Of a stretch of 64,000 bases of DNA, positions 48,817 through 62,583 are shown piece after piece. The stretch is from NCBI RefSeq assembly GCF_900115545.1, contig NZ_FOWV01000004.1:480542-544541 (forward strand), given 5' to 3'. The number at the start of each line of letters is the position of its first letter. Positions within the stretch are counted from its first letter, which is position 1. This DNA comes from Ralstonia sp. NFACC01. Its GTDB lineage: Bacteria; Pseudomonadota; Gammaproteobacteria; Burkholderiales; Burkholderiaceae. The notes beneath the pieces are model-generated. The model was given only the letters and a program-made list of their open reading frames with translations, made no database searches and was not told the origin of the DNA. A program made the translations under genes and the position numbers.

Positions 48817-49833
48817 ATGAAAAACAACGAAAAAGGAACGGTCTCCGTCAGCCTCGTCAACGAGGCGGTGACGCGCGCCCGCGCGCATGGCGTGGACATG
48901 CAGCACATCATGGCCGCCGCGGGCATCACGCCGCAGATGCTGGCGCAGCCGCGCAGCCGTGTGTCATCGGCGCAGTACGGCGCGCTGTGGGCCGGCATTG
49001 CGCAGGCCATGGACGACGAGTTCTTCGGGCAGGATGCGCACCCCATGCGCTGGGGCAGCTTCGTGGCAATGACGCAGGCGGCGCTGACCGCGCGCACGGG
49101 CCGACAGGCGCTCGCACGGGCCACGGGTTTTCTGCGCCTGGTGCTGGACGATCTGCATGTGCGCGTTGAAGAAGACGATCAGCGTGTGCGTCTTGTCTTT
49201 GTGCACCGCAAGGGCACGCGGGTGCCGCCCATGTTCACCTACGCCACGTGGCTCATCATGGTCTACGGACTGGTGTGCTGGCTCGTGGGGCGGCGCATTC
49301 CGTTCATTGCCGCGCGCTTCCGTTGTGCGGCGCCGCAGGATGCGCAGGAATATCGCCTGATGTTCTGTGACGACATGGCGTTCAAGCACGATGCGTCGTT
49401 CGTCGACCTATCGCCGGACTTTCTTGACCTGCCGGTCATTCAGACGGCCGCGTCCAGCAAGACGTTCCTGCGCGACGCGCCGGGCAACTTCATCGTCAAG
49501 TACCGCAACCCGGATTCCTTCGCCGCGCGCGTGCGCAAGACGCTGCGCAATCTTCCCGTGGCCAGCTGGCCCGCGTCGGACGCAATGGCGCTCAAGCTGA
49601 ACGTGGCCGAGGCCACCATGCGGCGGCGCCTGAAGCTGGAGGGCCACACGTATCAGTCGATCAAGGACGACCTGCGGCGCGACATTGCCATCGGCCAGTT
49701 GCAGGACACGCGCCGCACCATCGCCGACATTGCCGTCGCGGTCGGCTTTGCCGAACCGAGCGCCTTTCACCGCGCCTTCCGCAAATGGACCGGCATGCGG
49801 CCAACGGACTATCGGCTGGCCGGCGCAGGCTGA
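48817..49833 (+). CDS. AraC-family regulator of the valine/isobutyrate operon (MmsR-like role)
   Basis: A 338-residue regulator. The N-terminal ~190 residues resemble the arabinose-binding-type sensor domain of the OruR/ArgR-like AraC branch (AAGITPQMLAQPRSRVSS, then YGLVCWLVGRRIPF). The C-terminus has the two helix-turn-helix motifs, ending VGFAEPSAFHRAFRKWTG. It is divergent from the acyl-CoA dehydrogenase gene across 170 bp, as mmsR is from mmsAB in Pseudomonas, so activation of that operon is likely. ATG 48817 is chosen. Its last 25 bp overlap the convergent LysR gene. Confidence 0.9.
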   Translation: MKNNEKGTVSVSLVNEAVTRARAHGVDMQHIMAAAGITPQMLAQPRSRVSSAQYGALWAGIAQAMDDEFFGQDAHPMRWGSFVAMTQAALTARTGRQALARATGFLRLVLDDLHVRVEEDDQRVRLVFVHRKGTRVPPMFTYATWLIMVYGLVCWLVGRRIPFIAARFRCAAPQDAQEYRLMFCDDMAFKHDASFVDLSPDFLDLPVIQTAASSKTFLRDAPGNFIVKYRNPDSFAARVRKTLRNLPVASWPASDAMALKLNVAEATMRRRLKLEGHTYQSIKDDLRRDIAIGQLQDTRRTIADIAVAVGFAEPSAFHRAFRKWTGMRPTDYRLAGAG

Positions 49834-50738
49834 GGCTGCGCGGCGACCGCGTCCCCGGCCGTGCCGCTCACTTCCCGCAGCGTCTCCAGAAACGCCTTGA
49901 GCACCGGCGAGTGATCGTCCACACGATAGTGGACGTACAGCGGCACAGCAGGCAGCGCCGGCTCCAGCGGGCGGAAGACCACACCGGGCGGCGCCAGACT
50001 GGCCGTCGAGCCAGGCAGCAGCGCCACACCAAAGCCCGCGCTCACCAGCGCCAACAGCGTTTGCACTTCGGTCACCTGTTGGCGCACGAGCGGCGCAAAG
50101 CCGGCCTGGATGCACAGATGCAGCAGGTGATCAGCAAAGCGCGATCGCTTGGATTCGAACGCAACAAACGGCTCGCCGGCAAACTCGCCGAGGGCCAGGC
50201 TGGTGTGCCCGGCCAGGCGATGCGTGGCGGGCAACGCCATCACGATCGGCTCGTGCTGCAGCAGTTCGCTGCGCACGGCGGGGTCTTCCTGCCCCAGCCG
50301 GAAGATGCATGCATCGATGCGGCGCTCTTTGAGCGCGGCCACCTGAGCGGCGGGCGTCATCTCTTGCAAGCGCCATTCAACGCCGGGGTAGCGCTCGCGA
50401 AACTGGCGTAGCGCTTCGGGCAGCAGCCCCACCATCACCGAGCTGATCATGCCGATTTCCAGCTCGCCAACCTGGCCGCGGCCCGCCTGCCGGGTGAGGT
50501 CCAGCGCGCGGTTGAGCTGGGCGAACACCAGCGGCGCCTGCTCCTTGAGCGTGCGCCCGGCCGCCGTCAGTTCCACGCGGTGGTGACTACGCACAAACAG
50601 CGGCGTGCCGATCTCGTCTTCCAGCAGCCGGATCTGCTGGCTCAGCGGCGGCTGCGACATGAACAGGCGCGCCGCCGCCCGGCCGAAGTGCAGCTCGTCG
50701 GCCAGCACCGAGAAATAACGCAGCAGGCGGATGTCCAC
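49809..50738 (-). CDS. LysR-family regulator linked to the second molybdenum hydroxylase
   Basis: A 309-residue LysR protein. The helix-turn-helix segment is LHFGRAAARLFMSQPPLSQQIRLLE, of the BenM/CatM/CbnR-like branch that senses aromatic acids, and the effector domain covers ~90-295. The start is GTG 50738, only 8 bp after the stop of the molybdopterin subunit gene, so it is probably transcribed with that operon. Its 3' end overlaps the convergent AraC gene by 25 bp. The proposed target is the molybdenum hydroxylase operon, the amidohydrolase/UbiD operon, or both (inference). Confidence 0.9.
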   Translation of the reverse strand: MDIRLLRYFSVLADELHFGRAAARLFMSQPPLSQQIRLLEDEIGTPLFVRSHHRVELTAAGRTLKEQAPLVFAQLNRALDLTRQAGRGQVGELEIGMISSVMVGLLPEALRQFRERYPGVEWRLQEMTPAAQVAALKERRIDACIFRLGQEDPAVRSELLQHEPIVMALPATHRLAGHTSLALGEFAGEPFVAFESKRSRFADHLLHLCIQAGFAPLVRQQVTEVQTLLALVSAGFGVALLPGSTASLAPPGVVFRPLEPALPAVPLYVHYRVDDHSPVLKAFLETLREVSGTAGDAVAAQPQPAPASR

Positions 50739-50746
50739 GGTATGCG

Positions 50747-61175: not shown

Positions 61176-61182
61176 TTTTCCA

Positions 61183-62583
61183 ATGGACATTTCCATGCAC
61201 AACACGCCTCAAGACATCCTCATCCACCGCCCCATGGCCGTCATGACCGGCCTGCGCGGTGACGCCGCACGCGCCGGTGCGGTCGATATCCGCATCGCCG
61301 GGGGCCGCATCGCCGAGATGGGCGCAGACCTCACGCCCCGCCCCGGCGAGCGCGTCATCGACGCCAGCGACTGCATCGTCTACCCGGGCTGGATCAACAC
61401 GCACCATCACCTGTTCCAGAACCTGCTCAAGGCCGTGCCGGAAGGCATGAACCAGGACCTGCAAGGGTGGCTCGCCAGCGTGCCTTATCCGCGCCTGCCG
61501 CTGTTCACGCCGGAATTGATGCGCACAGCTGCGCGCCTGGGCATGGCGGAGCTGCTGCTGTCGGGCGCCACCACCTGCGCCGACCACCACTACCTCTATC
61601 ACGCAGGCGGCGGCACCGAATCGGGCGACATGCTGTTCGACGTGGCAGACGAGTTCGGCATGCGCTTCGTGCTCTGCCGCGGCGGCGCCATCGAATCGGC
61701 CAGCAGCCACCCGGGCTTTTCGAAGACGGCGCTGCGGCCTGAAACGCTCGACCAGATGCTGGCCGACATCGAGCGGCTCAAACACCGCTATCACGACGAC
61801 GCCCCCGATTCGATGCGCCGCGTGGCGGTGGCACCGACCACACCGACGTTCTCATTGCCGCCGGCATTGCTGGTCGAGCTGGCCCATGCGGCGCGCGGCA
61901 TGCACTTGCGCATGCATACGCATCTGTCGGAGACCGACAACTACGTTCGCTTCTGCCGCGAGAAATACAACTGTCTACCGGTGGAGTTCGTGGCCGAGCA
62001 CGAGTGGCTGGGCCCGGACGTCTGGTTTGCGCACCTCGTGCACTTGCAGCCGTCAGAGATCCGCATGCTCGCCCAGACGGGCAGCGGCATCGCGCACTGC
62101 CCCGTCAGCAACAGCCGGCTGGGCAGCGGCATCGCGCCGGTACCGCAACTGGCCGCGGCCGGCGTGCCGGTGTCATTGGGCGTGGATGGCGTAGCGTCCA
62201 ACGAATCGGGCAGCATGACCGGCGAGGTCAACACCGCCTGGCTGATCCACCGTGCCGCGCAAGGCGCCAGTGCCACCACTGCTGAAGATGTCATTCACTG
62301 GGCCACCGCAGGCGGCGCACGCGTGCTCGGCTTGAGTGAAGTCGGCACGCTGCAGGTCGGGCAAGCAGCCGATCTGGTGCTCTACGACATCAACCACCCG
62401 CGCTTCTACGGCTTCCACGACCCGGCGCTCGCGCCCGTGGTGGCCGGCGAGCCCATCACGGTGCGCACCAGCATCATCGGCGGGCGCGTCGTGGTAGACG
62501 AGGGCGTGGTGTGCGGACTGGATGTGGCAAGCATCCGTGCTGAAGCCAGCCAGGGTGTGGCGGACCTGATGGCATGCGCCTGA
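61183..62583 (+). CDS. amidohydrolase, 8-oxoguanine deaminase/TrzN-AtzA-type
   Basis: A 466-residue metal-dependent aminohydrolase. Metal ligands lie in NTHHHLFQ (His74/His76), HTHLSETD, and VDGVASNESGSM; a substrate-site ADHHYLY segment matches 8-oxoguanine deaminase of Pseudomonas in form. Relatives deaminate or dechlorinate purines, pterins, cytosine or s-triazines. It starts 7 bp after the NCS2 permease stop, and the family fits a nucleobase-type substrate. Start ATG 61183 (alternative ATG 61195). The substrate is unproven; deamination of an aminated heterocycle is the best guess. Confidence 0.9.
   Translation: MDISMHNTPQDILIHRPMAVMTGLRGDAARAGAVDIRIAGGRIAEMGADLTPRPGERVIDASDCIVYPGWINTHHHLFQNLLKAVPEGMNQDLQGWLASVPYPRLPLFTPELMRTAARLGMAELLLSGATTCADHHYLYHAGGGTESGDMLFDVADEFGMRFVLCRGGAIESASSHPGFSKTALRPETLDQMLADIERLKHRYHDDAPDSMRRVAVAPTTPTFSLPPALLVELAHAARGMHLRMHTHLSETDNYVRFCREKYNCLPVEFVAEHEWLGPDVWFAHLVHLQPSEIRMLAQTGSGIAHCPVSNSRLGSGIAPVPQLAAAGVPVSLGVDGVASNESGSMTGEVNTAWLIHRAAQGASATTAEDVIHWATAGGARVLGLSEVGTLQVGQAADLVLYDINHPRFYGFHDPALAPVVAGEPITVRTSIIGGRVVVDEGVVCGLDVASIRAEASQGVADLMACA

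Follow-up and report, generated by a model that had tools for sequence, protein, structure and literature searches.

Pterins derive from folate, insect pigments and cofactors and, to our knowledge, few genes have been assigned to the breakdown of their ring in bacteria. In Alcaligenes faecalis, which belongs to the same order as Ralstonia, McNutt (1963) and McNutt and Damle (1964) are said to have followed the conversion of isoxanthopterin into 7-oxylumazine and then into tetraoxypteridine, from which a 'tetraoxypteridine isomerase' reportedly yields xanthine-8-carboxylate; we know of no genes ever assigned to this pathway. Here, a block of 11 adjacent genes is described at positions 49809..62583 of a 64-kb stretch of DNA (hereafter the window) from the 5.37 Mb genome of Ralstonia sp. 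NFACC01 (G000), the enzyme classes of which fit the number and kind of the steps in A. faecalis, a match of chemistry only. Among the explanations weighed, the catabolism of pterins to xanthine is the best fit for this block, a reading that is put forward tentatively.

Several described enzymes come close to single members of the block. The enzymes of Hall et al. 2010 deaminate isoxanthopterin and pterin-6-carboxylate (excerpt of PMC5270733), and the isoxanthopterin deaminase work is also cited in an excerpt of PMC11121863. Excerpts of a study of folate degraders (PMC9513972) cite McNutt 1963 for the deamination of folate by extracts of A. faecalis and report that the deaminated products are further consumed in Variovorax, by steps not identified there; the pterin deaminase of these degraders (Arad3529, Variovorax F1) has the deamination of the pterin ring by bacteria in common with the proposed function of the block, and is likened to it by description only.

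Conservation and linkage of the block

The block is real and conserved. A contig scan with an alignment of relatives of ah2, the second of two adjacent Amidohydro_2 genes termed ah1 and ah2, gave 314 confirmed loci, of which the best 80 were used, a choice that biases the sample towards near relatives. These 80 loci belong to Ralstonia, Pseudomonas, Marinobacterium, Crenobacter, Caballeronia, Paraburkholderia, Burkholderia, Trinickia, Pandoraea and a few unplaced bins, and the closest named ones among the loci found are Ralstonia records with 99-100% identity in ah2. Linkage was counted only in loci whose contig extended far enough on the side in question (74 upstream, 68 downstream and 63 on both). 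The core, consisting of the two Amidohydro_2 genes, ubiD, ubiX, cobW, an NCS2 permease gene and a deaminase gene, is complete in 62 of the 63 loci that extend far enough both ways, and 59 of the 63 also carry a molybdenum (Mo) hydroxylase. Downstream, ubiD, ubiX, cobW and the deaminase gene are found in 68/68 loci and the permease gene in 67/68, the missing case being L014.

A first-pass annotation, made from the DNA letters, had named these genes, all of which were recovered at the same places by family scans and translations. Its view that they act jointly on a nitrogen heterocycle is supported by the conserved linkage, which includes the permease and the deaminase, and the search for co-occurrence that it proposed found that the core is not scattered in near relatives, with the deaminase unlinked in two more distant genomes. 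Overall, its interpretation is partly supported.

Beyond these loci, annotated plasmids contain a match in 91 records (182 places in total, with two places each in the 40 records listed), and even draws of the order and of the phylum contain an amidohydrolase match in 5/399 and 4/398 genomes, respectively, each with two adjacent copies. The gene set was not found described in the titles and abstract starts of the open-licence literature searched, nor was a published phenotype found for the Sinorhizobium meliloti tags SMb20134 to SMb20139, which were guessed from map position, the plasmid record of strain 1021 having no genes there.

Enzymes of the block and their relatives

The first-pass annotation had presented ah1 and ah2 as two Amidohydro_2 paralogues. 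Both do match the family model, but they are not an equal pair. In an alignment of 90 loci (the 80 and ten others, two of the ten from S. meliloti), in which each locus has the two genes at adjacent places, ah2 always reads DTHLHP and ah1 always reads xSCYP. The ah2 protein thus has the HxH motif together with the further His and Asp ligands, whereas ah1 has SCY instead of HxH. Residues H155, H183 and D235 are conserved at more than 95% in both groups alike and, if they and HxH bind metal as we assume from ACMSD, ah1 appears to have lost only the HxH pair among the usual ligands. Ser-Cys-Tyr is fixed in ah1 at the exact HxH position in 90/90 loci, and the actinobacterial and Chloroflexota homologues P0020, P0021 and P0079 retain HxH.

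The nearest solved sequence for both proteins is the 5-carboxyvanillate decarboxylase 4inf (E 3.7e-4 for ah1 and 5.5e-6 for ah2). Their single-chain models are barrels (mean confidence scores in Table 1), and both models match LigJ hydratase, LigW2, ACMSD, dihydroxybenzoate decarboxylases and IDCase in Foldseek, with modest TM-scores of ~0.5-0.65. The barrel fold, the Amidohydro_2 model and HxH with the further His/Asp ligands are therefore common to ah2 and the ACMSD/LigJ/IDCase group, from which the block differs by its HxH-less pair member, present in all 90 loci, and by the weak sequence match to the solved members; the earlier label 'ACMSD-like' holds at the level of fold and superfamily, but not at that of sequence. 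The Foldseek matches include 4ifk, which we take to be ACMSD, and the title of this entry describes arginines of the neighbouring subunit as essential in a zinc-dependent decarboxylase. Together with the SCY/HLH split in 90/90 loci, this suggests a heteromer with one metal-poor subunit, in which ah1 would complete the active site of ah2. The alternative that both are independent amidohydrolase decarboxylases, as had been supposed, is weakened, since the HxH metal ligands are missing from ah1.

The UbiD-type protein exceeds the cut-off of TIGR00148 (275.4 bits, cut-off 244.85) and conserves the R...E-x4-E residues, the role of which is assumed here to be that known from the family. These positions are shared with its best solved matches, 6h6v (209 bits) and AnInD (7p9q, 146 bits), which are distant at such scores; the former is presumably HmfF, and we take both to act on five-membered heteroaromatic acids (furan and indole, respectively). 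A second UbiD is encoded on contig C12 of the same genome.

The permease was correctly called an NCS2 transporter, and both NCS2 types found in the blocks of different lineages exceed the xanthine-permease model TIGR03173. Further links to purines come from gene context. In genome G002, the block (L149) adjoins genes for the PuuE allantoinase, OHCU decarboxylase and allantoate amidohydrolase, all over their cut-offs, with one SsuA-type binding-protein gene between, and for an HIU hydrolase just below its cut-off (79.5 versus 87.45 bits). The genome of the window has a canonical xanthine dehydrogenase (XDH) and an OHCU decarboxylase on contig C16. Canonical XDH is present in all six ah-pair genomes tested and in 71 of the 399 genomes of the order, including all five with the pair, which has a chance of 1.6e-4 if the genomes are treated as independent, which they are not.

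The deaminase had been described as similar to 8-oxoguanine deaminase, an identity that is rejected here: it scores 439 bits against the model of that enzyme (cut-off 532), whereas it exceeds the cut-off of NF009059 (769 bits, cut-off 543), and a 24-row tree sets the 8-oxoguanine deaminase 7WW2 and the other paralogue of the genome (contig C16, in L150) apart, with 100/100 support, from the remaining 22 rows, which include the window protein and 2PAJ. 2PAJ, which we take to be an isoxanthopterin deaminase, is the best solved relative, with 50% identity and residues 2-463 of 466 matched. An APTT motif is common to both proteins, while two rows of the 8-oxoguanine type have APCS. The window protein differs by its linkage to ah1, ah2 and UbiD, the close relatives of 2PAJ (83-89% identity) having a gene for an ATP-binding cassette (ABC) permease as neighbour, and by its position in the tree, where 2PAJ groups with L141 and L142. 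In the phylum sample, an NF009059 deaminase over the cut-off is found in 11/398 genomes, among them all four with the ah pair; with G002 and G175 added, such a deaminase is present in 6/6 ah-pair genomes of this class, even where it is unlinked, and in G158 it sits near a contig end, which leaves linkage unjudged. The 54% relative in G002 (L159) adjoins a permease, an ABC ATPase and an NMT1-type binding protein, and the neighbours of L141, L142 and L159 suggest a second uptake route for the substrate of these deaminases. Chemistry of the s-triazine type is rejected, with triazine hydrolases at 195 bits versus 468 for 2PAJ in the deaminase search.

The Mo hydroxylase of the window is a two-subunit enzyme with two LysR genes beside it, as had been annotated; its periplasmic location, which had also been claimed, is a prediction from the twin-arginine-like motif SRRRFLQ at the N-terminus of the large subunit. 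It is remote from canonical XDH, with 56 of the 849.5 bits and 140 of the 780 bits demanded by TIGR02965 and NF043082, respectively. In other lineages, its place seems to be taken by other enzymes. The two-subunit enzyme was not found, and an XdhABC-like three-subunit enzyme lies in the block, in the stretches from G314, G158, G002, G175, Cupriavidus sp. EM10 and S. meliloti; the large subunits reach 660 and 667 bits (the first two scanned) and 647 bits (G002) against the XdhA model, which needs 780. The blocks of Sinorhizobium and Paracoccus have a CodA-like amidohydrolase as their deaminase (249 and 251 bits versus 403 for PRK07583, with 65% mutual identity), and G314 combines both permease types, an XdhABC-like enzyme and a 2PAJ-like deaminase within ~16 kb. 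From these replacements around a constant ah1-ah2-UbiD core, import, deamination and Mo hydroxylation are taken to be needed steps. An XdhC-type protein gene, of a family that we take to be chaperones of the molybdenum cofactor, lies just beyond the first LysR gene in Marinobacterium (L009:3031-4002, minus strand). According to an excerpt of PMC9966888, xanthine oxidase makes violapterin from lumazine, which shows that hydroxylation of the pteridine ring is within the reach of a Mo enzyme.

A candidate route from pterins to xanthine

The permease of the PbuX class, the deaminase on the side of 2PAJ, the XdhABC-like alternatives and the urate and allantoin genes beside one block point to a pterin or purine substrate. 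Of the broad range proposed in the first-pass annotation, pterin and purine chemistry is thus indicated, and pyridine, pyrimidine and s-triazine carboxylates are less so. The following steps are all inferred from enzyme families and gene context. A pterin, oxidised or not, would enter through the NCS2 permease and lose its 2-amino group to the deaminase, and the Mo hydroxylase would introduce an oxygen into the ring, prior to import if this enzyme is periplasmic and after import in the case of the XdhABC-like version; given the predicted location of the window enzyme, its step may precede both import and deamination. The ah1/ah2 pair, as one heteromeric metal enzyme in which ah2 binds the metal and ah1 contributes residues across the interface, would then convert 2,4,6,7-tetraoxypteridine into xanthine-8-carboxylate by opening its pyrazine ring and closing it again. 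Such a ring contraction by an amidohydrolase would be chemically reasonable, because this product would arise if the cyclic oxamide were hydrolysed and the ring then closed. UbiD, using prenylated flavin mononucleotide from UbiX, would convert xanthine-8-carboxylate into xanthine, CobW would help with metal loading, and xanthine would pass into the XDH/urate route, whose genes lie elsewhere in the genome.

In this manner, the block offers one plausible enzyme for each step reported from A. faecalis and, in UbiD, one for the missing decarboxylation. The full proposal, i.e. an aerobic pathway from pterin to xanthine that includes the first genes for 'tetraoxypteridine isomerase' (the ah heteromer) and the first UbiD with a purine carboxylate, xanthine-8-carboxylate, as substrate, is more doubtful than pterin catabolism to xanthine as such. 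The pathway is likely known only from enzyme work, and the block could supply its genes. If the proposal were true, pterin salvage would be joined to purine breakdown, the UbiD family would gain a purine acid as substrate and there would be a case of two paired amidohydrolases of which one is a conserved metal-poor partner.

Several points weigh against this proposal. A periplasmic Mo enzyme would meet its substrate before deamination, unlike the order of steps reported for A. faecalis, and we know of no precedent either for UbiD acting on xanthine-8-carboxylate or for a ring-contracting Amidohydro_2 enzyme. The word 'tetraoxypteridine' was not found in the open-licence literature searched, where the single paper containing 'xanthine-8-carboxyl' is on urine metabolomics. 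The window deaminase lies outside the seven-row branch of 2PAJ (93/96, under the star threshold) and, together with an identity of only 50%, this means that its substrate may differ. It is 82% identical to the Crenobacter block deaminase, and the tree gives no supported grouping with other block deaminases. Relatives of 2PAJ with 83-89% identity (L141 and L142) adjoin an ABC permease gene instead of a block, the ah pair is absent from seven of the 11 genomes that carry an NF009059 deaminase in the phylum sample, and G002 and G175, from the order sample, have both the pair and an NF009059 deaminase, the latter unlinked to the block. The other members are not constant either: both Mo subunits are present in 70/74 loci and not nearby in L010, L030, L072 and L076, neither Mo type was found in the fetched Paracoccus stretch, no UbiX was found within the blocks of G002 and G175, and no CobW in that of G175. 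Finally, few genomes underlie the co-occurrence with XDH, for which genome size and kinship are confounding factors.

The main rival also starts from pterins. In it, the block would degrade products of folate photolysis or oxidation, with the deaminase forming lumazine-6-carboxylate from pterin-6-carboxylate, UbiD taking off the 6-carboxylate to form lumazine, and the Mo enzyme and the ah pair acting later on the ring. Heteroaromatic acids are within the scope of UbiD, although the nearest relatives of this UbiD are taken to act on five-membered rings; moreover, the route gives no account of the ah pair or of an exit to central metabolism, and no folate-cleavage gene is among the genes of the block. 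Pterin-6-carboxylate is a substrate of the enzymes of Hall et al. 2010 (excerpt of PMC5270733), and excerpts of PMC9513972 treat lumazine-6-carboxylic acid as a candidate intermediate of folate breakdown, but one that was undetected in culture. This route is considered unlikely.

Similarly improbable is that the ah/UbiD part degrades some other acid, N-heteroaromatic or benzenoid, and that the purine permease and the deaminase are only loosely involved. The folds closest to ah1 and ah2, which include LigJ, LigW2, dihydroxybenzoate decarboxylases and ACMSD, the many aromatic acids that are UbiD substrates and the unlinked deaminases of G002 and G175 would agree with it; the near-constant linkage of deaminase and permease in the loci with downstream room, however, does not, and neither do the occurrence of the deaminase in every ah-pair genome of the class and the deaminase of another type in the block of Sinorhizobium and Paracoccus.

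A hydrolytic purine route, such as the one reportedly used by purine-fermenting clostridia, in which the ah pair would open xanthine, UbiD would act on 4-amino-5-imidazolecarboxylate and the deaminase on 4-aminoimidazole, is very unlikely: it would explain the xanthine-class permeases, a five-membered aromatic acid for UbiD, the combination of amidohydrolase, decarboxylase and deaminase in one block and the urate genes near the block in L149, but the ah-pair genomes tested already have canonical XDH, the Mo hydroxylase would be left without a clear function, 2PAJ is the nearest solved relative of the deaminase, and the genes of the block, to which this search was confined, include none for an imidazolonase or for formiminoglycine.

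Gene layout and neighbouring genes

The coordinates of the 11 genes are collected in Table 1. From ah1 to the deaminase gene, the genes lie on the plus strand with intergenic gaps of 29, 63, -4, -4, 79 and 7 bp, short or negative distances that, on one strand, read as a single operon; the 4-bp overlaps of ubiD with ubiX and of ubiX with cobW, pointed out in the first-pass annotation, are real. The Mo enzyme and one LysR gene are divergent from this operon, and the second LysR gene is upstream of ah1. The genes of the Mo large subunit and the 2Fe-2S subunit also overlap by 4 bp. The most likely start of ah1 is 54680, with AGGAG upstream and MIID as the first residues, instead of 54620, and that of the Mo large subunit is most likely 52951; the MoCoBD_1 and MoCoBD_2 matches of the latter were scored on the longer frame 50747-53125. 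The 2Fe-2S subunit was assigned by its cysteine pattern and not by family scan, and its counterpart in Caballeronia sp. NK8 is annotated as a (2Fe-2S)-binding protein.

Table 1. Genes of the block, with positions in the window, strand and supporting evidence (pLDDT, predicted local distance difference test; locus counts refer to loci with room on the relevant side or, for ah1 and ah2, to the pair alignment).
Gene product	Position	Strand	Evidence
LysR-type regulator, likely of the block	49809..50738	-	family scan; present in 73/74 loci
Mo hydroxylase large subunit	50747..52951	-	MoCoBD_1 + MoCoBD_2; twin-arginine-like N-terminus; present in 70/74 loci
2Fe-2S small subunit of Mo hydroxylase	52948..53415	-	cysteine pattern in translation; present in 70/74 loci
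GcvA-like LysR regulator	53547..54440	+	family scan; present in 70/74 loci
ah1, Amidohydro_2 without HxH (ISCYP), proposed partner subunit	54680..55591	+	PF04909; SCYP in 90/90 loci; mean model pLDDT 82.6
ah2, Amidohydro_2 with HLH, H155, H183, D235, proposed catalytic subunit	55621..56544	+	PF04909; DTHLHP in 90/90 loci; mean model pLDDT 83.1
UbiD-type decarboxylase, R162, E265, E270	56608..57999	+	TIGR00148 over cut-off; alignments to 6h6v and AnInD
UbiX flavin prenyltransferase	57996..58637	+	TIGR00421 over cut-off
CobW/G3E GTPase, GCVCC (CxCC) and His-rich stretch, proposed metal chaperone	58634..59752	+	PF02492 + PF07683
NCS2 permease, xanthine-permease (PbuX) class	59832..61175	+	TIGR03173 470.6 bits, cut-off 414.15
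COG0402-type deaminase related to 2PAJ	61183..62583	+	NF009059 over cut-off; 2PAJ E 3.6e-139

Some neighbouring genes deserve mention. About 10 kb from the block, the window has a second Mo hydroxylase large subunit (36543-39482, minus strand), a 979-aa frame with MoCoBD_1 and MoCoBD_2. A gene similar to those of arylmalonate decarboxylase and Asp-Glu racemase directly follows the deaminase gene in Marinobacterium (L009:16942-17673) and Caballeronia (L015:16810-17562), where it may provide an accessory step. In Pseudomonas nitroreducens, the deaminase gene is followed by a gene for a Tsx-like protein (nucleoside channel; L070:17060-17941), which scores 26.8 bits, under the Pfam cut-off of 27.2.

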